64,000 bases of DNA, from contig NC_080573.1 in NCBI RefSeq assembly GCF_029962835.1, forward strand, positions 30,125,001-30,189,000, given 5' to 3'. The position numbers were made by a program, and so were the translations under genes. Under the pieces are notes generated by a model. The model had not been told where the DNA came from. It saw only the letters and a program-made list of their open reading frames with translations, and searched no databases. Positions within the stretch are counted from its first letter, which is position 1. Every line of letters begins with the position of its first letter. This document shows positions 17,618-58,119 of this stretch, piece after piece. This stretch comes from Magnolia sinica. Its lineage: Eukaryota > Streptophyta > Magnoliopsida > Magnoliales > Magnoliaceae.

Positions 17618-18279
17618 CTTCATGAAATTGAGCGAGCTTCAAATGAAATTGACCGAGCTTCACATGAAATTGAGCGAGCTTCGAATGAAATTGAGCGAGC
17701 TTCACATGAAATTGAGCGAGTTTCGAATGAATTTAAGTGAGCTTCACTTGAAATTGAGCGAGCCTAACATGAAGTTAAGTGAGCTTCAAATGAAATCGAG
17801 CGAGCCTAACATGAAATTGAGCGAGCTTCACAATAAATTGACGAAGCTTTACATGAAATTGAGCGAGCTTCAAATGAAATAGAGCGAGCTTCAAATAAAA
17901 TTGACCGAGCTTTAAATGAAATTAAGAGAGCTTCACATGAAATTGTGCGAGCTTCAAATGAAATGGAGCGAGCTTCAAATAAAATTGACCGAGTTTTAAA
18001 TGAAATTAAGAGAGCTTCAAATGAAATTGAGCGAGCCTAACATGAAATTGAGCGAGCTTCAAATGAAATTGAGCGAGCATATCATGAAATTGAGCGAGCT
18101 TCACATGAAATTGATCTAGCTTCAAATGAAATTGAGCGAGCCTAACATGAAATTGAGCGAGCTTCAAATGAAATTGATTGAGCCTAACATGAAATTGAGC
18201 GAGCTTCACATGAAATTAAGTGAGCCTAACATGAAATTGAGTGAGCTTCAAATGAAATTGAGCGAGCTTCAAATGAATA
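17618..18279 (+). repeat. 21 bp minisatellite, about 31 copies
   Basis: The unit is atgaaattgagcgagcttcaa with variants ending cttcac or cctaac. Because 21 is a multiple of three, long open frames result on both strands with heptads such as MKLSELQ, but there is no gene context, start or partner exon, so I do not call a protein. The first 15 or so bases of the unit closely match the 21 bp units inside the Mutator-like element at 39461-40145 and 45965-46255. Confidence 0.92.
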
Positions 18280-18640
18280 TTGTCTATCCATGCCATCCAT
18301 CCATTTTTCCATCTAATTCAAGGGGTTGAGCCCAAAAGTGAAGCATATCCAAAGATCAAGTGGATCATATTACATGAAACAATGAGGATAATCATTTACA
18401 CCGTCGAAACCTTGCTAGGCCCCAGAGGGATGTTTTATTTGTCATCCAGCTTGTTTATAGGATGATGTAAACATGGATGAACGGAAAACACAGATACAAC
18501 CTTGATCCAAAACTTTTATGGCCCACAAGAAATTTTTTCGGTATAGGTTTAGGGCAATTTGATCAAATATACATATAGTGCATGTTTTCTTCGATGGGAG
18601 CATAATTTTCGTCCATTCTTGATAAACTAAAAAGAAGACA
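18280..18640. repeat. MITE half
   Basis: Carries the 'tccatgccatccatccatttttccatc' start and the 'gaaccttgctaggccccagagggatg' middle of the foldback family, directly joined to the end of the 21 bp array. No matching left arm is found, so it may be truncated by the array. Confidence 0.45.
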
Positions 18641-26555: not shown

Positions 26556-26579
26556 TCCTACAAGAAGATGGATCTTTAC

Positions 26580-26880
26580 TGGCGCTTTTAAGCGCCGCCG
26601 TTTTATTTTCCCGGCGCTAGGGAAGCGCCAATGAATGGGGGTGTCGGTAAAAGTTCTACCGGCACTAGTATAAGTTTACCGGCGCTTATTTGAGTGCCGC
26701 GCATAGTAAACCCGTTTGCGGCGCTCATTCTACCTTTAGCGACGCTTTGGTGGTGTTAGTATTTCTGAAAGAAGCGCCGGTATAAGCATTAAAAGCGCCG
26801 CAAAAGTGTATCCAAGCGCTGTCGAAAGCACTGTTTCTGAATACTTTTTCACAAAAAAGCGCCGCTAAAAGTCATTGTAT
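26580..26880. repeat. CACTA subterminal repeats
   Basis: Around ten copies of a GGCGCT/AGCGCC-type hexamer in both orientations (ggcgcttttaagcgccgccg, ccggcgctagggaagcgcc and others). In En/Spm elements such motifs bind the TnpA-like protein; that function is known for the family, not shown here. Confidence 0.7.
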
Positions 26881-27074
26881 AGATTTCAAAGGCCCTGGTA
26901 GGCCAATAATATTTATTTATTATATATGATTCAATTGAAAAGCTGCATATTTTTAATATTTGAAAGATAAAAAATGATGCTACAATTAAAACTGAATATT
27001 AAATAAAATTTATATTACTTCGTAATAAAAAAAATATAATATTTATTACAATAAATTAAAAATGGTCTCAAATA

Positions 27075-27713
27075 AATAAATAAATAAAAACAAATCCTCT
27101 ATATGGTCTACTCGTAGCATGAGTGGCATCAAAAGGGCGAAGTGCTTGTAGGCCTAAATTCAGGCACAATTGATTAAAATCCTGCACACAAGAAAAAAGA
27201 GAGTCAAAAAGTAGCATTCAACAAATTGTTGCATGGAAAATAATCAATCATTTGATCCTATCCTTAAAAAGTCAAAAACTATCAAGGCAACAAATGTTGT
27301 AACTTGAATTCCATTACATCTATTGGCCCTACATTGATGCATGTGTTTTATCCACGCCCGTCCATCCATATGCATCCTTCACACGTGACATTCAAGTGTA
27401 CACGTGACCAATATCAGTGGTGAATCTGGTTCATTAATTACAATTCTATGATCTGCTTTAGGTGACATGGATGAAACGGGATGGTATCTAAGATGTGTTG
27501 AGAATCTAAGCAAGAATCTTCTACATAATGATCACAATAATAGTAGTAAAGGAACAGATTTAGAAAGTTGAGAATCTATTAGCATATACAACAACTCTCA
27601 ATTTAATTACATTCTAATATTAACAAAAGAAAAAATCAAAGAAAAACATTCCAAGATATCAAAGCATTACCTCATATATTGTCGGGGTAAATGAAAACCC
27701 ACGCTTTATTTCT
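27075..27713 (-). pseudogene. Two captured exons of an unrecognised gene
   Basis: Minus strand. An exon at 27671-27713 (43 bp) has acceptor CTGTGCAG and donor GTAATG and reads EIKRGFSFTPTIYE in one frame. The following exon starts at 27181 after acceptor GTGTGCAG and reads DFNQLCLNLGLQALRPFDA before running to a stop near 27075. The frames join across the intron, and the splice signals are good. I do not recognise the protein. It sits in the CACTA element and has no promoter or start of its own. Confidence 0.45.
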
Positions 27714-28155
27714 CTGCACAGATAAAGATCAAACAAGGTTCAAAAACTGAATCACCAGACAAACCAATGAAAAAGTGAAAATTTGAAGTTCATAAGAGTT
27801 GTTGGAGGCTTCTTGCAGATAAATCACTTGCTAGCAAATGAAATTCCTGCTTTTGGCTAGCAAATGAAAAGGGGGAAAAGGTGGTAACTCATTTACAGCT
27901 AGTAAATGATTTACTAGTATTTTAGGGCATCCAAACGCAGTAAATCATTTACAACTTGCCTCATTTGCCATCATCCAAACGCAGTATAGCCGTGGCATGG
28001 TTTTTTTGTGGAGCCTACCCATATGAATATGCACTTTTTTTTTTCATTATCAACAAAGTTGTTGGCAGTGTGCTCCAACCTTTCTGAAAAAAAATATAAT
28101 AATAAAATCTTGAAATTGCGTAGATGCTCGAATGTTATAACCCTTGTGATCATAC

Positions 28156-28327
28156 CTACAAATCCATCCCCAAAGTTGACACCATTTCCAAAGTTATAAG
28201 TATAAGCAAGGTGGCGATTGAGCAAAGCAGAGTTGAACTGGGTGAGGATGAATATCTTGTTTATGCCACTGTTGATGCAATTGCTCATAGGAACATCGAT
28301 AAGCCAATAGCATCCTCCGATAGGAAC
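28156..28327 (-). pseudogene. Captured exon of ADP-glucose pyrophosphorylase large subunit
   Basis: The minus-strand exon of 172 bp starts after acceptor CACTTTTAG and ends at donor GTATGATC. It encodes [20 protein letters not shown], then [20 protein letters not shown] and [14 protein letters not shown]. This is the conserved N-terminal catalytic segment of the plant plastid starch enzyme glucose-1-phosphate adenylyltransferase; the [11 protein letters not shown] stretch is typical of the large subunit. At least three residues differ from what I recall of the family (Arg to Trp after CY, Ser to Leu in NSASL, Arg to Tyr in ARTY). No neighbouring AGPase exons are seen, so this is a single captured exon inside the CACTA element, not a working gene. 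Confidence 0.85.
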
Positions 28328-28429
28328 CTAAAAGTGACATAAGATTGTGTTAGAATGCATTCTGAATTTTCAAAAAATTGAGAAGTGAGATTTTCAATTT
28401 AAACAAGTTACAGTTAGTTTTCATCATTT

Positions 28430-28630
28430 GTCATGAACATCAACCCTGGTGACCTTTAAATCAACGCTTTCACCCATACTTCGTACCAAAGCTTTATCTA
28501 GTGCCTGTTCTAGTAAGAAAAACCATGCAAACTAGCTTTATACACCATGTTCTTCAGGAGAGGATGAAAATGCTGCTAAAATTTGGGATGGCATCACCAC
28601 TGCCCCATGTTTTTCAGAAAAGAAGACAGT
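28430..28630 (-). pseudogene. Possible further exon-like pieces, unrecognised
   Basis: Minus-strand sequence after an acceptor-like TTCTTACTAG reads QALDKALVRSMGESVDLKVT. A preceding stretch reads EKHGAVVMPSQILAAFSSSP. Both look protein-like but I cannot name them, and the donors are weak. They may be captured exons or chance. Confidence 0.25.
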
Positions 28631-29259
28631 CTTGTTGATCATTGCTGAAAACTATCAATAAATACAATAATCATTGCTGAAAACTATCGATAAATCCATA
28701 TCAAGTAAATATAAAACATGGAGTAAAAACAATTCAATGACAAATAGAACTGCAAGGCAGCCCATATCCAATTTTTTGGTGGCACATATTCGAAAACAAT
28801 GTTACTGTCAACAATGTGACAAATATCATTCAGATTTTGAAATATTGCAAGAAATACATTTGTGGGCTGAATTCATTTGCGGGCTTGGGAGTTGGATATT
28901 AGAGCCAATATACCTTTCAAAAAGAGGATCCAAAGGTTTATGCTGACTCAAATTTATGTTGGCCATGAGATGGTTGAGGAATTAGTTACTTGCATATTGC
29001 CAAGGAGAATTAGAGATCCACTCCATCTATACAAAGTACGTGAACGGCAGAGATCTCAAACATGTCACCAAGTGGTGGGACATAAGAGGTAACTCCCCAC
29101 AACGTAGAATTCCAAACGATGCCAATTATAGAAAACGAAACCAAACTAATTATGTTTGAGAACCAATAGCAGAGATGTTGTAGAGATAGGGCCAAAAACA
29201 GAAAACTACGCCTGAGTTGTTGAAGCATGAAGCGAAAGGTTAAGTAAAGGATCAACGAA

Positions 29260-29410
29260 TGGCCAGGATACAGCCATGAGCTATTGGAAACATCCTCATC
29301 ATCTTCATCAATTTCTTCAGACTTCGACTTGTCAGATTCTTCCTCATCATCTTCATCTTCTTCATCAGCTTTAGCTTTTGCTTTGGATTTAGTTACTACT
29401 ACAAGAGTAC
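29260..29410 (-). pseudogene. Acidic exon-like fragment, unrecognised
   Basis: Within a 158-codon minus frame (29010-29486) the section KSKAKAKADEEDEDDEEES followed by DKSKSEEIDEDDEDVSNSS is highly acidic and Lys/Ser-rich, as in nucleolar, chaperone or chromatin proteins. The rest of the frame looks non-coding. It is probably another captured piece, or a GAT/GAA-rich low-complexity run. Confidence 0.3.
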
Positions 29411-29999
29411 AACGTTTACAAAAGCTATACAAATTTATACTGAAAAATATATGGCACATCCATGCTAAAGCTTGGCAGATCCCCATCTGAATTATTCAAT
29501 AATGAAAAATATAGCCCATCCGTAGATATGTATAATACTCTACATGTGGGACCTACAAACTCATCTGAATGAAAAATACAATACAACAATGAAATTAAAA
29601 TTCCAAATGAAATCAGAATTCCAAAGAAAGCCCAATTCAGCTACAAATTATAGATTGTTGTCATTCCAAAATTACAATTGGATATTAAGTTACAAAAACA
29701 ATAAGCAGCACAAAAGAAAGCCAATGCTTACATGCTAAGGCAATGCAACTGTCACCCTGCACTAGTGGACATGGCTCGTGTGCAAATGGGGTGACACAAG
29801 GCTTGATGCAATGTCTGGCAAGAATGCCAAATGGTGAGATGGATTTGTTGGTGGAAGGAGGGCTCAGGTTCTAAAGTCTTCAAGATTAGAATTCAACATG
29901 CAGCTTCAGCAATCTACAACATGAGAAATCAATCATTTGGGTTGATTGATCAGAAGTACCTTAAAATAGGAACAATTCATAAAGAACTCACATTCAACA

Positions 30000-30245
30000 A
30001 AAAAAAAAGAAAAAAAAGAAAAGCCTATAAAATAATGGCATGGCTCTTGATCATTTGGTTTTTATGATTTCAGACATATGGAGTATCCACAGTTAGGTAT
30101 AATAAATGAACGATTTGGATCTCATACACATGTGCCTTACGTACCTGACATAACTAAGATATTAGCATCTAGCACTGGATACTTGATGATTCATACAACA
30201 ATGAAGCACTTTGGCATCTGCAAAAAAAAAAAAAAAAAAAAAAAA
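30000..30245 (+). repeat. Poly(A)-rich tracts in the CACTA interior
   Basis: A-rich runs at 29999-30022 and 30222-30245. The second ends an A-run of about 23 and could be the tail of a retroposed piece, but no body is recognised. The interior from 29500 to 31480 otherwise shows no identifiable gene. Confidence 0.4.
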
Positions 30246-31411
30246 GGGGACAAGTGGAATTCTGCATATTACTGGTTTACATTGGAACAAATAACCAACC
30301 AAATGGACTATAAAATGAAAATTAAAGAATGAAACACATTGAAAGAATAAATCTTCATTAGTTAGAGGTTAAAACTTACAATTTCCCAAACAATCTTAAT
30401 TTGAGGCCTTGCCCCGTTTAAAGATGGGCCCATGGTTTGAGTTTGGATCAGTACATGTATGCCCATGATTTGAACCTGACTTGTATTAGGTTGAAGTGTC
30501 TTGTTCCCTGTTACAAGTGTGGCCAGTAGTTGTGAGATATAAACTTTAATTTGATAAGCTCTGTCAAAGAATATAGAATATAAATATCAATTGTTTAGGA
30601 AAAAGATGGACAACGATTAGACGGTAACGTATACCCAATTAGATTTGGTTGGGTTATGGAAAAAAGAGAAGTTATAAATTCCTAGATGGCCAAAGAGAAC
30701 TTAGATGGTAAGGTACACCCAATCAGTTTCTCATAAAGAATTTGTTTCTAGAAAATAAATTCTTTAGCAACTTGTAAATTCCTAGTTTCTACAATTCTTC
30801 AGGGTTCATTGGATGCTTCCAAATAAGATAGAGGAACTTCTAATAGCTTGGCAAGGTGGCGCATAACCTTGTTTGCAAGTCTTTGGGCACTATGGTGAGA
30901 AAGGAATGATCATTGCTTCAGGAAAAAAGAGAGGGAGCAATGCAAGTTTTCAGTCCGGACCACCATATGGATGGTTTAGATATTGCACCTATTAGCTAGG
31001 TTGACACATCTGGTGGTGTGTATTAGCATTATTGTACACACATGTGGGCTTATACTGGTGGCTGATACTAGAGAGTGAAATTTTCTTTTTATGTCTATCA
31101 CAATGTTCTTCCAATGCATGCTCAACTAAGAAAACAAGAATACTAACCAAATCCAACTATACACTGGTGAAATATGAGCATTCATATATACACACACCCT
31201 ACAATTTTCCACATGGCATACATCTACCACAATCCAACCTGTCTGAATAATCCGCATGAGCCAAGCAAAAACAGGAATTTTGTGATTTTGCACCTGTTGG
31301 TTTCCACCTTTTGTGATTTTGCACCTGTCACATCAGTTTACTGAATTTGATTTAATAACAACTTTGTGATTTTGCACCAATGTCTAAATCTAATAAGTGA
31401 TAGATTTACAA

Positions 31412-31437
31412 GATTATTATTATTATTATTATTACTA
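31412..31437 (+). repeat. (TTA)n microsatellite
   Basis: Short trinucleotide run just outside the LTR fragment start at 31488. A similar AAT run is at 35742-35775. Confidence 0.8.
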
Positions 31438-31487
31438 TTTAGTATGAGGGGTTGAATACACAATCCTTCAAGTAAAAACAGGATCAT

Positions 31488-34190
31488 TGTAACAACCCGT
31501 CCAACCAGTACAGTGTCCTGGGGTGTCCACATAGGATTTTCCACAGGACCGATCATTTAAACCATGAGCGGTGAGGTACCACAGGCAAATCAACCCAGGA
31601 CTAGCCCATTAGGATAAACCGGTCGGGTCATGATAGGACCCGGTGCGGGCCGTCGAGCCAGATGACTCATTTGTCCTTAGCAACAGCCTGTATGGGCTAT
31701 ACCGTGACACAGGAAGGTTAAAAAATTCTAAAAATAAAGGGAACCATAAATCTCACTGGGCTTGTGGACCATCGCGGACCACGGACCCAGCGGACACCCA
31801 GAAGTGGGATCTGGCACTGACTAAATGCACCCCACCAATGCCAGGACCGAAATCTGGCGTTTGCAAATGAAACCGAGACACCAGGCTATCTAATCGTCGG
31901 ATCTCTTCCATATTTATGGTGGAGGTCTAATGAATTTTCCTACACCCGTCCACCAACTCTGGTGATTGTCGATCACAAATCGGACCCGTACGACCAAACC
32001 CTAGATCCGATCGTCCACAAATTTTGCATGACCCTTCATCGGGCCATGAAACATCTATCCTAGAAATTTCATATCCAGAGGGCCACCAGAACTACTCCAA
32101 TCACCAGAATGGACCCCTCAGGGCCGTTTAAAGATCAAAACCGTTGACTCAAACCCACAACCGTCCATCCGTTTGTTCTCAAATTTTACACGGGCCCTAA
32201 TCGGGCCATTGGACACCTACCCACCAAATTTGGTAGCCAAGGGACTGTTAGGGCCACTCCAACTCCAAAAGTGAGTCCAGTAGGCTATTTTGGGAATTTG
32301 AGGAAACTTGAGGCCAAATGGCCCAAGTCTAGGGAATAAACCCTATCTCTCATAACTCTCCCCCATTTGCCACAACCACCAAGAGAGAAAGAGAGTGAAG
32401 GAGTTAAGAGGAGAAGATGGTGTGTGAGGGGTGATTCAAGGTGGACCTTAGATCGAAGTGGGGCCCAAGCGAGTTAACCCTTCCAACTCCATACCTCTCT
32501 TGCAAGGAGAAAATCCTCTCCTTAACTTCAATAACCGTCCGTCAGTTGCCTAGGTAAGATTTTCACCCATTCTTCTTGAAATCCATGTAGTAAGATGGGA
32601 TTGGCTTGGAATTCTAACATGCAAGAACTTGTTTTAGGGATTCCGGCCGATCGACCCGAAAACCCTCTTCCCTAGGGCATTTTTCGAATCTCTAACGAAC
32701 CATAGGTGCGGACTATTACTCTTAAGTGGCCTAGCACCAATTTTAGTACGAGCTTAATGATTTTGATTGCTTGGATGTTGTATTTGAAACTCTAGAGAAA
32801 ACCCTAGGAGTTATATATTCGTTGGAATTGTATGGATGTGCATGTTAGCTCTCAAACTGGTGTTGATCTTGTCTCTCACATGATTTGATGTATGGATGAT
32901 AGTATGCCCATATTTGCTTGATAGTTTTCCTCACATGTGGTGTTTCATTGTGTGTATGATTTATTACCCTTGTGCACATGATTTCTTGAGATAGAGGAAG
33001 TGTTTAACTTCCTCACAAACCCACACATTCACACGCACCTTAGTTATTGACAATTGTTTATATGCTTGTAAGAATATCAATTTTGTATGGTTGAAACGCA
33101 TGAGAATATGATATTATTATGCTTGATGATACTTGGGTAGTTGTCATGCCATGGATCCCCTCACCCTCCTTGGGTTGGTTAGGAATTGAGAAGAGACGGT
33201 AGTCCCATCGGTAGGACTATGCTATGGCTTGACCCATGGGTTTGAGCGGGTGTGTTCGGGTGGTTGTAGTTCGACTACATGAGTCTCTTGTGCCCGAAGT
33301 CACTCGCCTCACGCTCGCCCGACTCGTGCGGTCTATCCTACCGTCTGACTAACCTTGTTTGTTAACCCTGTTTGCTCACACATGTATGGAACCTAGAACA
33401 CCCCACAACCGTTGTAGCTCATTAGTAACCCACCTGAAATTAGTCCACAACCTCGTGAGCCGGGCATGGTTGAATGAGACACTGTGTCCGAGCTGTCGGC
33501 CTACGCTGGGGTACCGCGCCTCCCCGTTATGACTGCGAGCGATCCCTTTTCCGTCGACACTCCTCATGTGCTTGAAGTCGGGGATGAGGAACCCGATGGG
33601 ATCATGGACCGCGGGGCCTCGGCCTCATGCATTGGGGGGGTCTTGGCCTCGCACTCAATTTAGAGCGTTGATACGTGGGGTGTTCCAGAATCCCCAACCT
33701 GCTGGATGAAAGGACCTAACTAACAACTCGGTTAACACGATCGCATTGCATCGCATTAGCTAGGGTGACGACTCGGCAATCGAGGTCGCACTGAGGGAGT
33801 GTTGTCATACCCGATCGTTAGATGAAGTCGCTCGAGGGAGCGTTGTAGTGAGGGCATACATCATATCATCTTGCATACATGCGCATTAATAAGATTATTT
33901 AGATGTTTATGATTGACTACTTTTTATTAAGATCATATTATAATTGATGCCTGCGATAACTTGAGATTAATAGTACCCACTGAGTTGATCACTCACTCCC
34001 ACTCTGGGACGGTATTTTAAAACACCAATCAGACCCATTTATAGATGCAGGTGACTCAGGACTGGAGGAGCCTGGCGAGGCGAGTCTCGACGAAGAGGAC
34101 GAACTATCTTATTTTCAGATGATGGACGACTCTCCATCGGCTTGATGGGCAGGATTGGGATGGCTGGGCAGTGGGCTCAGCTTTATTCTT
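31488..34190 (+). mobile_element. Gypsy-type LTR fragment nested in the CACTA element
   Basis: It begins TGTAACAACCCGTCCAACC, a common start of plant gypsy-type LTRs, and extends about 2.7 kb to the gcaggtgactcaggactgg block near 34048 and a little beyond. The right end is not defined and no matching 5 bp duplication was found, so it may be incomplete. There is no gag or pol. It belongs to a different family from the LTRs at 6677 and 40274. Fossil. Confidence 0.6.
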
Positions 34191-34399
34191 ATTGGACATA
34201 GTATTCTTTTGTTGTTTTGGATGTGAAGTAAACAGTTAAAAGGCATGTCCATCAAAAACCATATAGACATAGCTACATGGGCTGTTAATCTCAAGAGAGG
34301 AGGCGAGAGCAGTCCAGATACAACCATTGTCAAAGGAAAGTAGCAGCAAGGCAATGTTCTAATAAAAACAATGAGGAGATGTAATACCACCAATCTCAC

Positions 34400-34523
34400 C
34401 TTAAGATGCTCTAGAATGACGTACAATAAATCCTTTGCCCTTTGTAAATCATTCTCAATATGATCTGTAGCATCAATGCTCTTGCCCCTTTTCTTTGCCA
34501 ATTCTTGTTCAACATACTTCAAC
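34400..34523 (-). pseudogene. Captured exon of a TLS1/C9orf78-like splicing factor
   Basis: The minus-strand exon of 124 bp has acceptor TTGTTTATAG and donor GTGAGATT. It encodes LKYVEQELAKKRGKSIDATD, then HIENDLQRAKDLLYVILEHL and K. The pattern K-Y-[IV]-E-x-E-x-A-K-K-[RK]-G-[KR] followed by an acidic helix and L-Y-x-I-x-E-H-L-K fits plant 'hepatocellular carcinoma-associated antigen 59' proteins (TLS1/C9orf78 family, spliceosome-associated). The larger minus-strand frame (34115-34642) around it is intron read-through. Only one exon is present, inside the CACTA element. Confidence 0.7.
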
Positions 34524-35164
34524 CTATAAACAAGAAAACATGGAAATATGGGAGTTGATACAAGTTGAAAGGAGTGAGTCGGTGGAATTGGAGAAGTTAA
34601 GAATTCAGCACTCAACATTGGCAGACAAACAACGCCAACCATAACACAAATCGAACCAATAAATGCATAAAAAACACTGAAAAAAATCTAATTATGGAAA
34701 CACGCATATCAAGAACAAAAAAAAAACCTACATTTGTCTCAGAAACTCCTAAAACAACACTTGCCAGTCAAGCAACATCTTTCATTTCTTCTTTACACAA
34801 TGGGCAATGCAGGCCATGTGATTTTCAGCTTCAAAATGAATGGTCAAAACTGTAACAGCCAACAGTCTATATACAATTGGAATATGTTCACCGACTGTAT
34901 GGGACTAGATGGAGAAGTGTTTGGATGCACATTCAAATTGAATTGAAATAATTAGTTCAATAGAGTAGAAATTAACAAAAGTGCAATTGTTTAAGGTAGT
35001 CTTCAAATTATGATTACAACTACTTCAAATTAACAAAATAGCTTCCATGTCCCTGAGTACACATGGCAAGGGGATGTTGAATCTTGATATGCCTTCTAGT
35101 GTCCTTTAATGTGAATGGCCCACAGATCCAAACACCACATCAATCAGGGAAAAAAAGGATTAAT

Positions 35165-35320
35165 GTAGTCGACCCCAATTAGTTGGGATAAGGCTTAATG
35201 GTGATGATGTTGATGATTGAGATGGCAGAGTATGAACTTCCATCTCAAGCAGACCTCATACACAGTGCCTTTGCTGGTGATGATGTGGAGGGAGAGTTTG
35301 AGAAGGACAAGCCTTATCCC
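35165..35320. mobile_element. Two RTE-type LINE 3' tail fragments, opposed
   Basis: At about 35165-35225 the plus strand reads gtcgaccccaattagttggg, then ataaggct and a run of gatgatg-like triplets. This resembles the 3' end of plant RTE-type non-LTR elements. At about 35300-35322 the inverse text aagccttatcccaactaatg occurs. Only tails are present, without reverse transcriptase. Confidence 0.45.
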
Positions 35321-35479
35321 AACTAATGTGACAAATGGATAAGCATCATATCGTTGCTCGATCCTTCTACACACCACTGATATTGAAATAGCCATTAGGT
35401 ATTGATGCAGGAAAGATGTGGAATGGATGCTGAAATTGAAATTTTCAACAAATCTATTTTTGTTTAGAAGTCTTGAGCC

Positions 35480-35610
35480 TCTAATTGATATCTTGTTGAA
35501 TAGGAGCAGAAAACCATGTTTTGCCTAGGGACAAGGTGGACATGCCAGTACTGCACTCAGCTGGTTCAGAGCTGAATTCTGCCATTGTCAATCCCTTCTT
35601 TGGAGTTCTC
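35480..35610 (+). pseudogene. Possible exon-like frame, unrecognised
   Basis: Plus-strand sequence after an acceptor-like TTGTTGAATAG reads ENHVLPRDKVDMPVLHSAGS, then ELNSAIVNPFFGVL and stop. It looks protein-like but is not recognised. The frame at 35834-36019 (TEGPKFLPPPPFKECFPRS) is likewise protein-like and unnamed. Both are plus strand, unlike the other pieces. Confidence 0.25.
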
Positions 35611-36190
35611 TGAGTTGTATTGGACCATAGAACCATCATCAGTCTCATGAGTCCTTGGTAACATTATTTATGGATTGTATTTTTGGCATCCTTCACTGAC
35701 CTAACCCTATATTTTCCCAAACATGAAACAAATGACCCGTGATAATAATAATACGAATAATAATAATAATAATACTAGATTAAAATAAAAAAGAATCACC
35801 AAAACAATTTGGATAATTGCTTCCACCGCTGAATTGAAAAAGACAAAACAGAGGAAGCCAATAGTTAATACTGAAGGCCCTAAATTCTTGCCACCTCCAC
35901 CCTTTAAAGAATGCTTTCCAAGGAGCACAAAAGAATGTAGGAAACATTTTCATGCATTATATACAAGGTTGTTTGCTAGACACGTAAAAATGAGTTTATC
36001 TCATTTTAGTTACTCATAATATGTATTAGAGATAATGAATGTTGGTTATCAAGATTCTTTTTAATCCTGAAATGTGATCTCTAATACATGATAAAGATTG
36101 ATGAATATGAGATGAACTCAATTTAGGCGTCTATCAAATAGTCCCTGAATGTGGACAACTTCTACATTAAATAGAGCACCACTAACAAAC

Positions 36191-36244
36191 CTGTATTTGT
36201 TTAATGCTTTGTAGCTCTTCAGCCCCGTATTGTTGAGTCTCAGC
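36191..36244 (-). pseudogene. Captured 54 bp exon, unrecognised
   Basis: The minus-strand segment has acceptor TTTCTATAG and donor GTTTGTTAG and an open phase-0 reading AETQQYGAEELQSIKQIQ. Splice signals and amphipathic helix-like content suggest a real exon. I do not recognise the source gene. Confidence 0.4.
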
Positions 36245-36389
36245 CTATAGAAATTGAACAATAATAAAATCAGGACAAGATATACCGGTGTAGCAGAAAA
36301 TATAAATTCATGAAAGAGCCAAAACCTATGAGACACGACATGGATAGAGTAACATAGGCTAAACAAGTGCTATTCTAAACACTTGAGTG

Positions 36390-36720
36390 TCTTCCTTTGC
36401 CTTCCTAAGCTTCAAAAAACCCTTGATCAGCCCATGGTAAACACTTGCATCAAGCTATCTTATCCCCTCCATAAACCAAAGTAGTTAATGTTGCATTAAC
36501 AGCACTTATCCCTCTCTTGAGCATTTCGTCGAACACCATTTATGCTTCATTCAGCTTCCCCTTTCTACACAACCAAGTGATCAAGAGTCTATATGAAGAG
36601 AGACCACATCATGAATTCTCTCCATCTTTATAGATCTGAACATCTGCATCGCATCGAAAATCCTATCACATTTGTCAGGAATCAAGCAATGCAGTGTGTG
36701 GCCCATCATACCAATGGTCT
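36390..36720 (-). pseudogene. Captured pentatricopeptide-repeat (PPR) gene fragment
   Basis: Minus-strand frames give FDAMQMFRSIKMERIHDVVS, then LITWLCRKGKLNEA-stop-MVFDEMLKRGI and VYHGLIKGFLKLRKAKED. The 'LI..LC..GK..EA..VFDEML.RGI' register is the 35-residue PPR helix pair of plant organelle RNA-binding proteins. At least one in-frame stop and one frame change separate the parts, so it cannot code. It lies inside the CACTA element on the same strand as the other captured pieces. Confidence 0.75.
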
Positions 36721-37081
36721 AGATCACAGAAAAGCATAAAGTTAACAAATCATGAGAGTGATGTAGCATTTTTTTGAAGAATTCAAAAGGGTCAGCCTGA
36801 CTCTACATACATCTATCATGAGGAGTACTAGTCAGCTAAAGCATTTGGCCAACAACCCTAATGCCTAAAAAAATCACTAGAATTAAATGCTTCTATTCTA
36901 GCATTGAAACAAGAGTTCTGGAATGCAAAAATCTGAGGATAGAAGAAGAATCGGTTCTCTCTGAATTTGATTATCGAGAAATCCCAAATTCCTTCATCTC
37001 CATAAAAATGCTATAAAAAAATCATAAAATCAACAGATTTCCAGCAGAAAAGGGGGGAAAAGTGAAGATCGAAGGGATCTA

Positions 37082-37155
37082 ACTGTCTCCGTCCTTCTTA
37101 AACATGCCAAATGCCTCCTTGAACTCAGAGATCTGATCATCCTCAAACTCACCAC
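37082..37155 (-). pseudogene. Captured calmodulin first-exon fragment
   Basis: Minus strand: [20 protein letters not shown] then GDS and a stop. Plant calmodulin begins with [20 protein letters not shown]; the match ends where the first intron of plant calmodulin genes usually lies. Changes in the EF-hand loop (Asp to Lys at FDKD) would weaken calcium binding. Upstream residues (ADIDADSGEFE) do not match the calmodulin start. The sequence sits near the right end of the CACTA element, next to a GA microsatellite. Confidence 0.75.
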
Positions 37156-37206
37156 TATCAGCGTCGATGTCGGCGTGGACGGCAAACCAACCATCTTCAA
37201 CGAAAG

Positions 37207-37208
37207 AA

Positions 37209-37273
<65 letters not shown>
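37207..37273 (+). repeat. (GA)n microsatellite
   Basis: About 33 GA units next to the captured calmodulin piece, with a shorter run at 37389-37404. CT/GA tracts are common in 5' leaders of plant genes, so it may have been captured along with the calmodulin sequence. Confidence 0.9.
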
Positions 37274-37277
<4 letters not shown>

Positions 37278-37420
37278 GTCGATTGAGGAGAAGACGATGG
37301 AGAGATAAAGGTATTTTGTGGAGAAGACAAGAGATTGGGATTATTTTTTTTTTAGGGAGATGGTTAGTCGGTGTTTTTAGGGAGGAGACGAGAGAGAGAG
37401 AGAGGTGAGGCGATTTGGGG

Positions 37421-37530
37421 TTCCGGGACTTTTACAACATATTTGTGACCGCAGGTCATTCACGGGAAATATCCGTTCCGGGACTTTTACAACATATTTG
37501 TGACCGCAGGTCATTCACGGGAAATATCCG
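37421..37530 (+). repeat. Perfect 55 bp tandem duplication in CACTA subterminal region
   Basis: Bases 37421-37475 are repeated without difference at 37476-37530 (unit starts ttccgggacttttacaacat and ends gggaaatatccg). The lack of any difference suggests a recent event or gene conversion. Confidence 0.92.
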
Positions 37531-37578
37531 TCAGCCACTTGTAAAAAAGCGCCGGTTATTCCAGCATTTCTTGTAGTG

Positions 37579-38494: not shown

Positions 38495-39460
38495 GAGAAA
38501 TTTACAACTACAGACCCCACCTTTTATCAATGGGATATTCTTGAAGCAATACAAACTTAACTTCCGAACTTAGACCTCCTCGTACGGATGGCAAATTCCA
38601 GGACGAAAATCCCCCCCTTTTCACGGATACGGATTGGCTACTCCCCCTGCCACCCGCCAATGGTGGATCATCGGTGGTCTATGGGCCCAAACATGATTTA
38701 TGCTTTTCATATATAGTGTCCATATATTTTTCCAGATCATTTTATGGTAGGAGACCAAAAATGAGGTATATCCAAATCTCAAGTGTACCACATTACAGGA
38801 AACAGTGCTGAATGAGCATCAACCATTAGAAACTCAGGTGGGGCCCACTATGATGTTTGTGAGAAATCCTCCCCGTCTAAGTTCATTCATAGGTTCACAA
38901 AGACCTGGATGAAGAGGAAAAATAAATTTCATAATGATCCAAAACTTCTGTAATCCCTAAAAGGGTTTCAATGGTAGACGTTCAATTCCCCACTGCCTTT
39001 TACAGTGTGGTCTACTTGATAGTTAGATCTGTCTTATTTTTCATCTCAAGCCTTAATATGAGCTCGCCAAATAGATGAACAGTTTGGATATAACACAAAC
39101 CTCATGATGGGACCCACAAAAGCAAGATAGCAAAAAAAAGAAAAAACACAGTAGTGCTGCGGCAGTCTGACGGCTTCTTTTTTTTTTTTTCACAGGGATA
39201 ACTTTTTTCTCCTTACATTTTTCTCTAATGCATAGTTATGTAAATATGTATATATAAGTATATAAAAATATTTTTCTATCTTTTAATTCATTTATTTGTT
39301 TATTTATTTAACAAGCATATTTCCTAAATTAGAATGAGTTACTTAACGTACCACATATGATTTTGGGGTAGGAGAAGCTAATTTAGCCCACCAATGTAGT
39401 TATTTTCCAAAATTCAATCAGGTCGATAGTTGAAAATCCATTTCATTCTCTTCGCGGTCA
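38495..39460 (+). repeat. Left terminal inverted repeat of the Mutator-like element
   Basis: This matches the reverse complement of 47900-48858 along its length: tacaacta-c-gacc start, 'ttcttgaagcaatacaaacttaacttccgaacttagacctcctc', the ggattggctactcccc block, and the tagtttaggaaatatgc-like text before the array. An embedded foldback-MITE-like part (38636-39120) is shared by both arms, so it was present before the arms diverged. Confidence 0.85.
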
Positions 39461-40145
39461 AACTCAAAATTGAGCGGGGCAAACCAGAAATTGAGCGGGG
39501 CAAACTAGAAATTGAGCAGGGCAAACTGAAAATTGAGCGGGGCAAACTAGAAATTGAGCGGGGCAAACTGAAAATTGAGCGTGGCAAACTAAAAATTGAG
39601 CGGGACAAATCGAAAATTGAGCGGGGCAAACTAGAAATTGAGCGGGACAAATCGAAAATTGAGCGGGGCAAACCGAAAATTAAGCGGGGCAAACTAGAAA
39701 TTAAGCGAGGCAAACCGAAAATTGAGTGAGGAAAACTAGAAATTGAGTGGGGCAAACCAGAAATTAAGCGAGGCAAACTAGAAATTGAGTGGGGCAAACT
39801 GAAAATTAAGCAAGGCAAACTAGAAATTGAGCGGGGCAAACCAGAAATTGAGCGGGGCAAACTAAAAATTGAGCGGGATAAACTGAAAATTAAGCAGGGC
39901 AAACTAGAAATTGAGGGGGGTAAACTAGAAATTGAGGGGGGCAAACCGAAAATTGAGCGGGGCAAACCAGAAATTAAGCGAGGAAAACTGAAAATTGAGC
40001 AGCGCAAACTAGACATTGAGCGGGGCAAACAGAAAATTGAGCGGGGCAAACTAGAAATCGAACGGGACAAATAAAAAATTGAGCGGGGCAAACCAGAAAT
40101 TGAGCAGAGCAAACTAAAAATTAAGCGGGGCAAATTAAAAATTGG
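39461..40145 (+). repeat. 21 bp minisatellite, left terminus, about 32 copies
   Basis: The unit is gcggggcaaactagaaattga with single-base variants. Because 21 is divisible by three, a 239-codon minus frame (39414-40133) of LPRSISS/LPRSIFS heptads and a plus frame of KIERGKL heptads appear; I treat both as by-products. Borders the left terminus of the Mutator-like element. Confidence 0.93.
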
Positions 40146-41093: not shown

Positions 41094-42339
41094 GTATGAA
41101 TGGTATGTGTGGCCTATCATGAAGTAAGTATTTCATCCATGCCGTCCACCGAGTGGCCCACATGGCAATCCATTTGGACGGGTCTGATCGAAGGAAAACA
41201 CAAGTATTAGTTCGATCCGAGGTCTATGTGGGCCACACGTGTGGAACCACCATGGCATATGCATTAGCTCCACACCGTCCAGGGGTCAGGATGGCGGGGC
41301 CCACCCTCATATTGATGTGGATTAATCCACACCATCTAGAGCATCCAGACCTCCTGGACGCTAGACATGTATTATATACACATGATATATGTTATATATT
41401 TATATATATTATTATAATATATATTATCATGATATGAGGTGGGCCACACGTGTGGACCCACATGGAGATCTCCACCATCTAGAACATCCAGGGGTCTGGA
41501 TGGTGGCTCTTTATAATTTATATATATTATATTATATTATATTATAATATATGTGAAGTGGGCCACGTGTGTGGGACCCACCACTAATGTATGTTTGTAT
41601 CCATGTCGTCCAGCGATCTGGACAGGTGGAGTCCACCGTGATGTAGGTTTATATCCATGCCGTCCAGCAAGCTGGACAGGTGGAGTCCACCCTGATGTAT
41701 GTTTGTATCTATGCCGTCCATTCATCTGGTGAGCTCGTCTTTGGCTCAAGACGAAAATGAAGCAGATTTAGTCCTCTAGTGGGCCACGTACATGGACCCC
41801 ACCCCTGATGTTGGTGTTACATCCAAACCGTCCATCTATTTTGGACCACCTTGTCTCACGGCTAGAGACTAAAAATAAGATAGATCTAGTTATCAGGTGG
41901 ACCAAACCACAGGAAATAGTGGATTAAACACCCACCATTAAAATCCCCTTTTGGGTTATAGAAGTTTTGAACTAATATGATATTTATTTTCCCTCACTGT
42001 TCAGGTTTTTAGTGAACTTATGAACAGTCTGGATGGGAAATAAATGATATGGTGGGCCCTCTAAATTTTAACAGTGGAAATCATTATCACCATTGTTATT
42101 CGTGGTATGGTCCAGATGATCTTTTGATCTGATTTATCGTTTGGATAATGCTCTAAAATGATCTCTATAGATGGATGAATGGTGCGGCCCAAGTAGTGCA
42201 GCCCACTTGTTGTATTTGAGAGGCCCAATATGACGTATATGGGGCCCATGGTTAGAGGCCCATTGTGATGTATTTGGAGCTCATGGCTAGAGGCCCACTG
42301 TGATATACTTGGCCCATTTGATCGGCCCAATTGATTCAG

Positions 42340-42870
42340 CTCATTGGTACTAGCCCATTTGATTCGGCCATTCGACTCGGCCTATTCGATTCGGCCCATT
42401 GAATAGGCCCATTTGAATTCGCCCATTTATATCGACCCAATTGACTTGGCCCATTTGATTCGGCCCACTTGTATCAGCCCATTTGATCGACCCAATTGAC
42501 TCGGCCCATTTGAATCGGCCCATTTGAATCAGCCCATTTGAATCGGCCCATTTGTATCGGCCCATTTGATCGACCCAATTGACTTGGCCCATTTGTATCT
42601 GCCCATTTGATCGACCCAATTGACTGGACCCATTTGAATCGGCCCATTTGATTCGGCCCATTGACTCGGCCCATTTGATCGACCTAATTGACTTGGCCCA
42701 TTTGATTCAACCCATCCACTCGACCCATTTGTATCGGCCCACTTGATTGACCCAATTAACTTTGGCCCATTTGATTTGGCCCATTGACTTGACCCAATTG
42801 ATTTGGCCCATTTGTACCGGCCCATTTGATTCGGCTTATTTGATTCGACCCATTGATACGACCCGATGTT
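42340..42870 (+). repeat. 14 bp minisatellite inside the solo LTR
   Basis: The unit is cggcccatttgaat, alternating with variants such as cgacccaattgact, in about 35 copies. The minus frames of M-G-R-x-K-W-A type over this tract are by-products. It is not seen in the other two LTR copies in this window. Confidence 0.88.
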
Positions 42871-45964: not shown

Positions 45965-46255
45965 CACTCAATTTCTAGTTTGCCCCGCTCAATTTCTAGT
46001 TTGAACGGGGCAAACATGAAATTGAGTGGGGCAAACATGAAATTGAGCGGGGCAAACATGAAATTCAGCGGGGCATTAATGAATTTGAGCGGGGCAAACT
46101 AGAAATTCAGTGGGGCAAACATGAAATTCAGCGGGGCAAACTAGAAATTCAGCGGGGCAAACATGAAATTGAGCAGGGCAAACTAGAAATTCAGCGGGGC
46201 AAACCGAAAATTGAGCAGGGCAGAAATGAAATTCAGCGGGGCAAACATGAAGGTT
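45965..46255 (+). repeat. 21 bp minisatellite, internal, with inverted head
   Basis: The first two units (about 45968-46004) lie in reverse orientation (tttctagtttgccccgctca) and then the array switches to forward at about 46005. Forward units alternate between atgaaattgagcggggcaaac and tagaaattcagcggggcaaac types, giving a 42 bp higher-order period. About 13 units in total. Confidence 0.88.
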
Positions 46256-46679: not shown

Positions 46680-47574
46680 TTTTTTGAAGAAAGAAAAAGA
46701 TAGGATTTTTCTCATGGGTCTTCGAATCGGTAATGCAGTACAAATGAGCATACACTAAGGTTCTTTTAAAGAAAGATGATCTGTAATCATCAAATATTGT
46801 TTGTAAACCCTATCTGATAATTGTATCGTAGGATGCTCATGTTCAGTGCAAGTACAAATATTAAGTTGGCATACACATTTCAGTAAATTAAGATTTAATC
46901 GCTGATTCAAGTTTCCATTTTTGTTTATTAAGATATACTCATTATGCATGCATAAGGTGAAATGAACAGTTATGAATGGCTATGATTGAAGCTAAGGCAT
47001 CTCTTGATAGAGATGATTGGACCACTTAGAAGTGTGCATGCCAGTTATACCTAGCATGAGATTTTCATGTTTTATACTAATGTTTTCGGTATTTATGTCA
47101 TTGGAAATGCCGACATTGTGATCACGCCTAGTCTCACTTTAATAAATGAGGTGATGATTGCCGTGGTCTAGTGTCGATAGTTCCAATCGACCAAATAATT
47201 CAGGATACTTTATAGGATCCATTAAAATATCTAGTAGAATCTCGATCGTTAATGATTTACCATATAATACATTGCATATTGAAGAATATCATGATTATCT
47301 CAAGTTAGAGAATGTTGGAATCATTTGCCATGTATGCCATGTTTTCATCTGGTAATGCAATGATTGGTTTAAATTAATCACATTGGGTATATACGGTTTT
47401 ATAGGCATGAAGTACTATAGACAACTCAAGATAGAATTATATTGAAGAATGACTTCTCTCTTTGTACGTGAGAGATTGAGAATACGTAAGTAAGTGAAAG
47501 AATTCTACAATGGGTGAACTCTCTTCCATAGCCACTCTCCTATATAAAATGCATTCGGTCCCTAACACAGACCT
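46680..47574. other. Mutator-like interior, unassigned
   Basis: AT-rich sequence with no recognisable protein. The frame at 47158-47355 has no similarity I can name. It could be part of a further nested retroelement, but no termini are visible. Confidence 0.35.
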
Positions 47575-47899
47575 CATGTTTACCCCACTAAATTTATAGT
47601 TTGCTCCCCTCAATTTAATGTTTGCCCCGTTGAATTTCTAGTTTGCCTCGCTCAATTTCATATTTACCCCGCTGATTTTCTAGTTTGCCCCGCTCAATTT
47701 CATGTTTGCCCCACTGATTTTCTAGTTTGCCCCACTCAATTTCATGTTTGCCCCGCTAAAATTCATGTTTGCCCCGCTGAATTTCTAGTTTGTCTCACTC
47801 AATTTCATGTTTGCCCCGCTAAATTTCTAGTTTGCCCCGCTCAATTTCATGTTTGCCCCACTGAATTTCTAATTTGCCCCGCACAATTTCATGTTTGAT
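47575..47899 (-). repeat. 21 bp minisatellite, right terminus, about 15 copies
   Basis: The units are in reverse orientation relative to the left array (ctagtttgccccgctcaattt and catgtttgccccgctgaattt alternating), again with a 42 bp period. This mirrors the left array as part of the inverted terminus but is half its length. Confidence 0.92.
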
Positions 47900-48858
47900 T
47901 GCAAAGTAATTGAAATTGACCACGAAGTGAATGAAATGGATTTTTGACCATTGACTCGATGGAATCTTGAAAAATAACTACGTTGGTTGGCTAAATTAGC
48001 TTCTCCTACCCCAAAATCATATGTGGTACGTTAAGTAAATCATTCTAGTTTAGGAGATATGCTTATTAAATAAATAGACAAAGAAATGAATTAAAAGATA
48101 GAAAAATATTTTTATATACTTATATATACATATTTACGTGACTAGGTATTAGAGAAAAATGTAAGGGGGAAAAAGTTCTCCCCGTGGAAAAAAAAAAATT
48201 TGTTAGACTGCCGCGGCACTGCTGTGGGTTTTTTTTTTGTCTTGCTTTTGTGGGTCCCATCATGAGGTCTGTGTTATATCCAAACTGTCCATCTATTTGG
48301 CGAGCTCATATTAAGGCTTGATACGAAAAATAAGACAGATCTAACTATCAAGTGGACCACACTGTAAGAGGCAGTGGGGAATTGAACGTCTACCATTGAG
48401 GTTAAGGAATTTTTGGATCATTATGAAATTTGTTTTTCCTCTTCATCCAGGTCTTTGTGACCCTATGAATGAACTTAGGCGGGAAGGATTTCTCACAAAC
48501 ATCACAGTGGGCCACACCTGAGTTTCTAATGGTTGACGCTCATTCAACACTGTTTCCTATAATGTGGTACATTTGAGATTTGGATATACCTCATTTTTGG
48601 TCTCATACTTAAAATGATCTGAAAAAATATATGGACAGCATGGATGAAAAGCATACATCATGGTGTGGCGCACAGACCACCGACGATCCACCATTGGTGG
48701 GTGGCGGGGGAGTAGCCAATCCGTTTCCGTGAAAAGGAGAGGTATTTTCATCCTGGGATTTGTCGTCCGTATGAGGAGGTCTAAGTTCGGAAGTTAAGTT
48801 TGTATTGCTTCAAGAATATCCAGTGGATAAAAGGTGGGTCCACAGTTGTAAATTTCTC
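47900..48858 (-). repeat. Right terminal inverted repeat of the Mutator-like element
   Basis: Reverse complement of 38495-39460 with scattered differences and small indels. It ends at 48858 exactly where the 9 bp duplication ACTTTTCTA begins. Confidence 0.85.
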
Positions 48859-48867
48859 ACTTTTCTA

Positions 48868-49415
48868 CTTGTGACAAGGTCAAGACTCAAATTCCCAAAC
48901 CGTCGTCCGTTTGGCGGGCTCTTTGTGAGTGTTGAACCGACGGATCCAAAAATCAAGTGGACCACAAAGTAAAACGGAATGGTACAGAGCCCCTGCCTAC
49001 CACTGAAACCCTTTTGGGTGTCACATGAAATCTGGATCAATAGGATATTTGTTTTTCCTGATTTGTGTAACCTCGTGAATATGTGGATGGAAAATAAATG
49101 TTACGGTGGGCTTATGAATGTTTTAATGGTGAGAATCATTTTTCCAGTACTATTTGTGGTGTGGTCCAATTGGGCCTTCGAAATCACTCATTTTAGGCTG
49201 AAAGATCTGAAATGATCTCTCCAAATGGATGAACGGTGTGGATATGATAAATAAATCATTGTGGGGCCATGTAACTTTCATCTCGTTTGAACTGTTGGTA
49301 CAACTTGGAGCTCAAGGAGCGTCAGCGTACGTACCCACACCAGCTATGTTGGTGGTGTGTGGTGCAGCAGCCAATCCGCTTCCGGGAAGGTCCCAGCGAA
49401 ACTCAGCCTCAGCCT
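48868..49415. repeat. MITE-like upstream region of the P450 gene
   Basis: Contains the 'aagtggaccacaaagtaaaacgg', 'atgttacggtgggctta' and 'cccacaccagctatgttgg' blocks of the foldback MITE family and ends at about 49380 with cagccaatccgcttccgg. It is matched in inverted orientation at 58190-58670, so it was part of the unit duplicated with the P450 gene. Confidence 0.6.
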
Positions 49416-49425
49416 CCATATATGG
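49416..49425 (+). promoter_or_regulatory. Putative TATA box of the P450 gene
   Basis: The motif ccatatatgg lies 48-57 bp before the start codon. The inverted copy has a more canonical ttatatag at the matching place (about 58165-58175, minus strand). This would give a very short leader; no transcript data support it. Confidence 0.35.
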
Positions 49426-49472
49426 ATAAGATAGGTAGGTAACGAAAAGGAAGAAAATCAATCAATCATTCA

Positions 49473-50390
49473 ATGGCTATTTTTCCATCTCTTCTCCTCT
49501 TGGTTGTAGCCATTGTTCTTCTAATCTTGGCTACTTCCAATGGAGGTCGAAGAAGGAATAAGTCTAACCAACCTCCTTCTCCATCCAAGCTTCCGATCAT
49601 TGGCAACCTTCACCAGCTAGGTGGGCCTAGTTCCCTTCTGCACCGTTCACTACAGTCGCTCTCGAACAAACACGGCCCGCTAATGCTTCTCCACATGGGG
49701 AACATTCCAACTCTCGTAGTTTCATCAGCAGAGATGGCTGAAGAGATCTTGAAAACCCATGATCTTGTTTTTGCAAGCCGGCCTTTGCCTTGTCCGAACG
49801 CAGCCAGGGAGCTTATTTACGGCGGCACCGACTTGGCCTTTTCACCCTATGGGGAGTACTGGAGGCAAGTAAGGAAAATCTGTGTCGTCGAGCTTTTGAG
49901 TGGTAAGAGAGTCCAGTCATTCGCGTTTATTATGGAAGAAGAAGTTGGGAGTATGATCAAGGAGATTAAAGGTTCAAGTTCGGTCTTTGCCGTTAATCTG
50001 ACCGATATGTTTCTCTACCTATCTAGCGGCATAATCTCAAGAGTTGCTTTTGGGAAGAAGTATATTGGAGGAGAGAATGGGGAGAATAGATTCATGGATC
50101 TAGCCAGGGAATTGGAAGTTCTTTTGGGATCTTTTTGCGTAGGAGATTATTTTCCATCATTCGGATGGATTGATGTTCTGAGCGGCTTGGATGCGAGATT
50201 GAAGAGAGTTTCTAAAGGCATGGATGATTTTCTTGATCAAGTGATTGACGACCATCTCATTCGCACGAATGCCAACAAGGATGGAAACGACGATGAGCAT
50301 AACGACCTTGTGGATGTATTACTCCACCTTCAAAAGGATACCAATGCCGACGTCCATCTCACCAAAGATAACTTAAAAGCCATCATCTTG

Positions 50391-50425
<35 letters not shown>

Positions 50426-56810: not shown

Positions 56811-57177
56811 ACAGGAACCCAACCTATTGACAGCTTGTAGGCAGACCTAGATTTCATAATATTCACCATGTGTGTAAGTCATGGAAAGGTTCACTCCACA
56901 ATTCCACCCAGTCATCGACCAGTAGGTGTTTGACCAGTAGGTGTTTGAGTGTAAAAACCTACATGTGTGTCTGTGCCATGGTATCCAGAAATGGTTACCC
57001 AATGGCCGTTGCATAATGGTAACAGTGAGACCAGACCATCATGTATTATAGAACTGTAATGGCTAGTTGCATTAGAAATGGCCTTGAATGGACCGTGACG
57101 GGCCAATATTGTTTTTTAAATGTCCCTCACAGCCCATGTTACAGCCGCTTTTACTCGTATTGAATACCATGATCTGT

Positions 57178-57180
<3 letters not shown>

Positions 57181-57231
<51 letters not shown>
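57181..57231 (+). repeat. (GA)n microsatellite in the P450 pseudogene
   Basis: Equivalent of the CT tract at the functional donor, but about twice as long (51 bp). Confidence 0.93.
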
Positions 57232-57232
<1 letters not shown>

Positions 57233-57233
<1 letters not shown>

Positions 57234-58119
57234 AAGATGATGGCTTTAAGGTTATCTTTCATGAGATGGATGTTGGCATTGGCATCCTTTTAAAGGTGGA
57301 CCAATACATCCACAAGGTTATCTGTGCTCATCGTCATTTCCATCATTGTTGACATTCCCACAATTGAGATGGTCCTCAATCAATTGATCAAGAAAATCAT
57401 CCATGCCTTGAGAAATTCTCTTTAATCTAGCATCTAAGCCACTGAGGACATCCATCCATCCAAATGATGGAAAATAATCACCTGCACCGAAAGATCCCAA
57501 AAGAACTAGCAATTCCATGGCGAGATCCGAGAATCTAATCTCCCCATTCTCTCCTCCCGTGTACTTCTTCCCGAAAGTGAACATGTTGATTAGATTAATG
57601 GCCAAGATCGAATAAGAATCTTTAATATCCTTGATCATATTACCAACTTCTTCCCTAATAAAAGTGAATGGCTGCACTCTCTTACCACTCAAAAGCTCAA
57701 TAACGCAGATTTTCCTAACTTGCCTCCAGTACTCCCCATAGGGTGAAAAGGCCAAGTCATTGCAACCGTCGAGAAGCTGCTTGGCTGCGTTCGAATAAGG
57801 CCAAGCCGGCCAGCTTGCGAAAATAAGATCATGTGTTTAAAAGATACTCTTCAGCCATCTCTGCTGATGAAACTATGAGAGTTGGAATGTTCCCCATGTG
57901 GAGGAGCATTAGCGGGCCATGTTTCTCAGAAAGCGACCTTAGAGAATAGTGTGGAAGGGAACTAGACCCACCTAGCTGGTGGAGGTTGCCAATGATCGGA
58001 AGCTTGGATGGAGAAGGTGGTTGGTTGGATTTATTCCTTCTTCTACCCCCGTTGAAAGTAGCCAAGATAAGAAGAAAAATGGCTACAACCAAGAAGAGAA
58101 GAGAGCGAAAGATAGCCAT
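57233..58119 (-). pseudogene. P450 exon-1 pseudogene (CYP71-type)
   Basis: The minus-strand copy of exon 1 starts [20 protein letters not shown] and keeps [18 protein letters not shown] and GDYFPSFGW. Compared with the intact gene it has a frame change after SSAEMAEE (near 57830), altered sequence before FSPYGEYW, an in-frame loss of 11 residues (LYLSSGIISRV, near 57590), a frame change after DDEH (near 57318), and GC instead of GT at the donor. Exon 2 with the heme Cys is absent. It cannot encode an enzyme. Being inverted relative to the gene, its transcript would be antisense to exon 1. Confidence 0.9.

Follow-up and report, generated by a model that had tools for sequence, protein, structure and literature searches.

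Termini and copies of the element

We analysed a 64,000-nucleotide stretch of the Magnolia sinica genome, hereafter the window, which corresponds to positions 30125001-30189000 of contig C1; coordinates are those of the window unless a contig is named, C and L numbers denote contigs and loci, and the genome searched spans 1.84 Gb. Positions 26556-37578 hold a CACTA element that carries a cargo of short host-gene pieces (Table 1). Its terminal inverted repeats are both exact in the copies on C58 and C16, which keep both ends (CACTACAAGAAG at the 5′ side, TTCTTGTAGTG at the 3′ side); in the window copy the 3′ repeat is exact and the 5′ one decayed. The subterminal repeats are uneven: among the 17 GGCGCT/AGCGCC matches in the whole window, nine lie at 26581-26863, a single one stands near the 3′ end, at 37548, and seven fall outside the element. 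The 10 peptides scanned from the element, which cover some of its frames, matched no transposase family.

Table 1. Features of the CACTA element and its cargo, in window coordinates (LTR, long terminal repeat)
Feature	Positions	Strand	Evidence
Decayed 5′ CACTA terminus, TCCTACAAGAA	26556-26566	+	CACTACAAGAA here in C58, C16, C7, C6, C13, C18
5′ subterminal region, GGCGCT/AGCGCC-rich	26567-26866	+	9 motif matches; DNA 26556-27556 recurs
AGPase large-subunit block: exon 28156-28327 with intron on both sides	28131-28481	-	95.75% to L039, donor C2:139.303 Mb
Dispersed-repeat piece	28660-29011		~352 bp at 89-97% in 25 of 40 scored places
HMG-box gene block	29009-29403	-	95.8% and 96.4% to L080, donor C2:40.108 Mb
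Four further blocks: 30791-30954, 30953-31052, 31054-31255, 31255-31365	30791-31365		Match dispersed repeats or other loci; hit table only
TLS1/C9orf78-like gene block, split by LTR	31375-34587	-	L053: 31375-31487 (88%), 34217-34587 (93%); donor C10:6.18 Mb
LTR of an LTR retrotransposon, alone here (probable solo LTR)	31488-34216	+	Absent from C7, C58, C15
Piece from C6:68.773 Mb	34586-34682		98% to L070
RING/CCHC-finger gene piece, C6:102.63 Mb	34723-34811	-	89% to L076
Piece of C3:127.880 Mb locus	34798-34926	- (match to L068)	88% to L068
Second piece of C3:127.880 Mb locus	34916-35021	- (match to L068)	90% to L068
Third piece of C3:127.880 Mb locus, opposite orientation	35040-35156	+	95% to L068
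Dispersed-repeat piece	35153-35235	+	92-93% to L073, L074, L075
UTP14 exon piece, C17:10.087 Mb	35218-35310	+ (sense)	98% to L071; Utp14 1.1e-32
Exact 18-bp inverted copy of 35179-35196, flanked by two captured pieces	35309-35326	-	Sequence check
Piece from C1:47.93 Mb	35325-35423	- (match to L077)	86% to L077
PUB-domain gene piece, C5:114.594 Mb	35522-35689	+	93% to L081; PUB 8.6e-7, score below cut-off
Block also at C10:8.21, 8.30, 8.46 Mb	35939-36294		94% to L082; internal inverted repeat and exon-like stretch
PPR gene piece, C8:6.92 Mb or its paralogue	36374-36674	-	79% to L083; PPR_2 5.6e-34
Calmodulin N-terminus-like piece	37085-37150	-	Best PDB 7e-6 (calmodulin fusion), 7.7e-6 (calmodulin)
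Exact 55-bp tandem duplication, 3′ subterminal region	37420-37529		C15, C16, C3 matches overlap here as for a single copy
3′ CACTA terminus, TTCTTGTAGTG, exact	37568-37578	-	CACTA end in reverse

The 5′ end of the element (26556-27556), used as query, had 1565 first-look candidates, and the 39 that were scored yielded 47 match rows. Longer interior queries gave collinear copies on C58, C16, C7, C15, C29, and C3, mostly 92-97% alike (89% in the 5′ part of the C15 copy). The C7 match ends at 37180 and the C29 match at 30789, the C3 copy is without 27920-34576 and the 5′ tip, and in smaller relatives on C6, C13, and C18 position 27607 is followed directly by 34360, the two sides overlapping by 4 bp. 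The 3-bp target site duplications match in C58 (GAT/GAT) and C16 (ATT/ATT), so that every copy found with two intact ends and a long cargo (n = 2) has one. Ends and cargo thus recur together with target duplications, which shows that they moved as a unit to other chromosomes, as the collinear copies on other contigs attest. The original prediction had named such joint recurrence as a check, and it held, at C58 and C16 among other places.

Several further relatives were observed. A 3.4-kb element on C18 (L008/L033, 49102432-49105824) has the same 5′ end and TLS1 piece with a different 3′ half, and a second group (L040 and L041, at C2:103.63 and C7:4.62) carries the AGPase and HMG-box pieces with 28371 joined directly to 28800. 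The same two pieces stand side by side in the hit table at C1:37.74 and C15:35.73. Two stretches, 29740-29909 and 35027-35437, are flanked by 5-bp repeats (GCAAT, AAATT) and absent from some relatives; either they were inserted with duplications, or the relatives lost them by deletion at short repeats.

The 2.7-kb stretch at 31488-34216 is a later insertion rather than cargo. Its site is occupied by 21 other bases in C7, C58, and C15, and no flanking duplication is therefore visible. A search with this stretch had 8957 candidates, of which 40 were scored; the same unit occurs at more than 30 other places among these, and in six cases it forms a same-strand pair with a spacing of about 10-13 kb (e.g., C18:33769088 and 33779608).

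Sources of the cargo

Fifteen cargo blocks were traced to 13 sources (11 single places and two dispersed repeats), in addition to the 18-bp local inverted copy. The named sources are the AGPase large subunit, an HMG-box protein, TLS1/C9orf78, a RING/CCHC protein, UTP14, a PUB-domain protein, and a PPR protein; seven of the 11 fetched single-place sources are such named genes, with coding sequence beyond the captured piece. By its alignments, the cargo derives from host genes at other loci. The original prediction of a CACTA-type element with pieces of at least four unrelated host genes agrees with the ends and donor matches found, the pieces being more numerous than four, and alignment to donors, which it also proposed, matched AGPase, TLS1, and PPR genes elsewhere that continue as coding sequence past the piece. 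Its view that all pieces share one strand did not stand: the four that it named do read on the minus strand, as do the HMG-box and RING/CCHC pieces, but the UTP14 and PUB pieces lie on the plus strand and those of the C3 locus run both ways.

Pfam matches passed the cut-off for Hep_59 (3.5e-19, joined exons of the TLS1 donor), Utp14, PPR, zf-CCHC_2 (2.5e-10, peptides of the RING/CCHC donor), and NTP_transferase (AGPase piece or donor). They stayed below it for PUB, HMG_box (E 0.0029, donor peptide), RING (0.018, same RING/CCHC peptides), and, close to the C3 pieces, an abhydrolase (6.9e-6). Some names are our own assumption: we take the nucleotidyl transferase, which is all that Pfam gives, to be the AGPase large subunit, the HMG-box protein to be an HMGB, the Hep_59 protein to be TLS1, and the repeat at 35153-35235 to be presumably the tail of a SINE-like (short interspersed) element.

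A protein search for the AGPase piece found 18 places, and the donor locus L039 (3.2 kb) matches the element at 28131-28481 only, with further AGPase-like exons on either side. In this block, the element copies are 94.7-100% alike mutually and 94.9-96.3% alike to the donor, and they have common changes that the donor lacks, so that a single capture was then amplified. The TLS1 donor L053 (with relatives L055 and L056) has exons neighbouring the captured one, which lies at about 34397-34522. In the HMG-box block, some 297 bp of the donor are missing at 29293-29295. Loci L084 and L085 are alike beyond the stretch matching 28660-29011 too, which, together with its recurrence in the scored places, marks it as a piece of a dispersed repeat.

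Kept splice sites, another element of the original prediction, were found on both sides of the TLS1 exon; at the AGPase exon, 2 bp of the 5′ site, present in the donor and in the copies compared, are missing from the window copy. Splice-site letters at these exons are what one would expect if the pieces were exons of real local genes. This has virtually no chance of being correct: matching genes with coding sequence beyond the piece exist on C2, C10, C17, C5, C8, and C6, and the same mosaic stands between CACTA ends at C58 and C16. Donors elsewhere and a mosaic that recurs with CACTA ends thus rule out linked local exons.

The cargo could also have been captured from mRNA by reverse transcription, and two C3 pieces (34798-34926 and 34916-35021) do skip about 600 bp of their donor, as if an intron had been removed. 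Capture from mRNA is nevertheless very improbable. The AGPase and TLS1 blocks have intron on both sides, and we reject it on these grounds; the gap in the HMG-box block has 3 bp of shared sequence, like a deletion. Since these blocks carry introns, genomic DNA was captured, as the original prediction had it.

One short stretch of the cargo, 34586-35423, is a patchwork. A query with 34588-35521 gave small matches from many places, and after the sources were fetched and aligned the stretch resolved into eight pieces, which stem from five unlinked places and one dispersed repeat; the local inverted copy lies in it as well. Further towards the 3′ end, the PUB piece lacks about 79 bp in the window that C16, C58, C3, and C15 keep. 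The predicted calmodulin piece is real: its peptide matches calmodulin residues 4-25 and sits in a 3′ module common to many related elements. The DNA search did not find its donor, its 40 scored places resembling related elements.

Other searches were negative within their scope. For 29589-30500 the search resolved no donor, its 40 scored places again resembling related elements, and the donor search devoted to 26556-28130 covered its first 1001 bases. A PDB search found no true relative with the TLS1 piece and no match with a hand-read frame of the piece at 35.5 kb, and the joined kinesin-like peptides of L031 had no significant Pfam match.

Junctions and the route of assembly

We considered a junction testable when sequence was available for both joined stretches and these abutted directly, which left seven. 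The best breakpoint was ambiguous over 3, 3, 3, 2, 3, 4, and 7 bp (the last non-contiguous, and 4 by eye). At least two bases were thus shared in all seven, a result with a probability of 0.18-0.28 per junction in random joins, and their summed shared bases were reached in 0.0001-0.0036 of random trials (summed P 0.00025-0.0091 for the five junctions between different sources). Shared bases at every tested junction favour template switching in break repair, and provided that the rest of our explanation holds, these junctions suggest that it is the likeliest route of assembly, which we hold with some confidence.

The main rival to template switching is the fusion of neighbouring elements. In that scenario, two related CACTA copies land near each other and lose their inner ends, after which the outer ends mobilise the whole intervening stretch. 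This is the published model for Pack-CACTA elements (Catoni and colleagues, as described in PMC8903248 and PMC13317346), and modules are indeed common to related elements in varying combinations. We nonetheless consider it unlikely here. Under fusion, the flanking DNA should come in as one contiguous block; instead, 34586-35423 is made of pieces about 83-129 bp long that derive from C6, C3, C17, C1, and a dispersed repeat. Between 26866 and 37547 there is neither an approximate match to CACTACAAGAAA or TTTCTTGTAGTG (up to 2 mismatches) nor an AGCGCC/GGCGCT motif; lost inner ends leave no trace, so this absence of internal remnants is not decisive.

The element is very probably a non-autonomous Pack-CACTA transposon whose cargo was assembled from genomic DNA of many unlinked loci and then moved as a unit. 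Several points weigh against this. The flanks of the window copy (TCC/ACC) are an imperfect target duplication and its 5′ end is decayed, as is the 5′ tip of the C15 copy, while that of the C3 copy is lost; a derived element on C18 has both end motifs with flanks that do not match (GAC/ACA). Without the LTR, 5,049 of 8,294 bases had no assigned source (3245 were assigned, before the hit-table blocks at 30791-31365), and large parts of 26556-28130, 29404-30790, and the 3′ module are element sequence or untraced. Concerning the junctions, the null for random joins uses 13 fetched loci, and the microhomology count omits junctions with unassigned bases (34683-34722, 35022-35039, 35424-35432), the one that holds the inverted filler, and any that border on untraced sequence. 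Among the seven counted, HMGB-HMGB and the junction of the first two C3 pieces each connect parts of a single locus and may represent deletions.

In the mechanism that we propose, the ends and subterminal motifs would serve as substrate for a CACTA transposase from another element. Breaks inside the element would be repaired by a polymerase switching templates at shared sequences of about 2-7 bp, each switch copying roughly 80-500 bp. The chimera then moved as a unit to other chromosomes, and some copies lost internal parts; the window copy is decayed, with a damaged 5′ end and the LTR insertion.

Some exons kept their splice sites, so the element could be spliced into host transcripts, and the chimera might act on its donor genes through a putative fusion RNA or small RNA. 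The minus-strand exons with kept splice sites resemble those of Tgm-Express1, an element with pieces that end up in a host transcript by splicing (PMC1947982), but the reading frames of the window copy are damaged by the losses in the PUB piece (79 bp) and at the AGPase exon (2 bp), and we regard such an activity as improbable. Most likely the element has no specific role in the host and is a neutral passenger.

Neighbouring repeats and comparison with known systems

The rest of the window contains other repeats. Four related arrays of a 21-bp tandem repeat occur in both orientations (17622-18282, 39459-40144, 46006-46251, 47574-47897), and a dense 14-bp tandem array of GGCCCATTTG type lies at 42309-42854. 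Two inverted pairs were observed, one 86% alike (47578-48858 and 38495-39799) and one of about 1.7 kb, 79% alike (49086-50754 and 56811-58491). The 544 bp at 61027-61570 are 75% alike to their own reverse complement, as in a foldback element or a miniature inverted-repeat transposable element.

CACTA elements that carry genes are already known, and what distinguishes this one is that its construction is unusually traceable. The comparisons that follow draw on portions of the cited papers. The soybean Tgm-Express1, a CACTA of 5.7 kb, likewise holds fragments of several unrelated host genes (five) with introns and splice sites, and the latter are used (PMC1947982); in the Magnolia element, the named donor genes number at least seven, the blocks are shorter, more numerous, and on both strands, and there are several copies, but it is not known to be transcribed, whereas Tgm-Express1 has a spliced transcript. 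Pack-CACTA (Pack-TYPE) elements of maize and rice also combine CACTA ends with coding DNA from several loci (PMC8903248), but the block-by-block sources and junction bases of the Magnolia element favour template switching over element fusion. Metazoan elements of the Pack-TIR type (TIR, terminal inverted repeat) likewise show microhomology, with a median of 2 bp at their breakpoints, and a gap-filling or template-switching model has been put forward for them (PMC8277862); they are mostly single-copy animal elements, unlike this plant CACTA with many sources in one. Maize Ds2 and Ds-l4 with filler DNA are TIR elements that contain gene fragments including introns and for which break repair has been suggested, but they belong to the hAT superfamily, with one captured gene per example (PMC3260210). 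CACTA capture has also been described in wheat, with 140 events on 3B (PMC4290129), and in Chenopodium (PMC8978399). The element had been put forward as a candidate undescribed one, which can apply at most to this family, since its kind is well described (PMC1947982, PMC8903248). Among the papers listed by title in a literature search, none is about the family, and we do not claim its absence from print.

Multi-gene carriers of this kind are easily mis-annotated as genes. How cut-and-paste transposons gain host genes is still debated, the fusion of neighbours being set against errors of repair. The Magnolia genome retains many of the sources and several copies of the element, so that the junctions can be read base by base and the question of capture becomes testable. 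We tentatively propose, as a reading that could well fail, that break repair wrote the cargo of this CACTA lineage, through serial template switching primed by microhomology. If so, multi-gene Pack-CACTAs would preserve, like fossils, a record of synthesis of the polymerase-theta-like or gap-repair type, and not of fused neighbouring elements.

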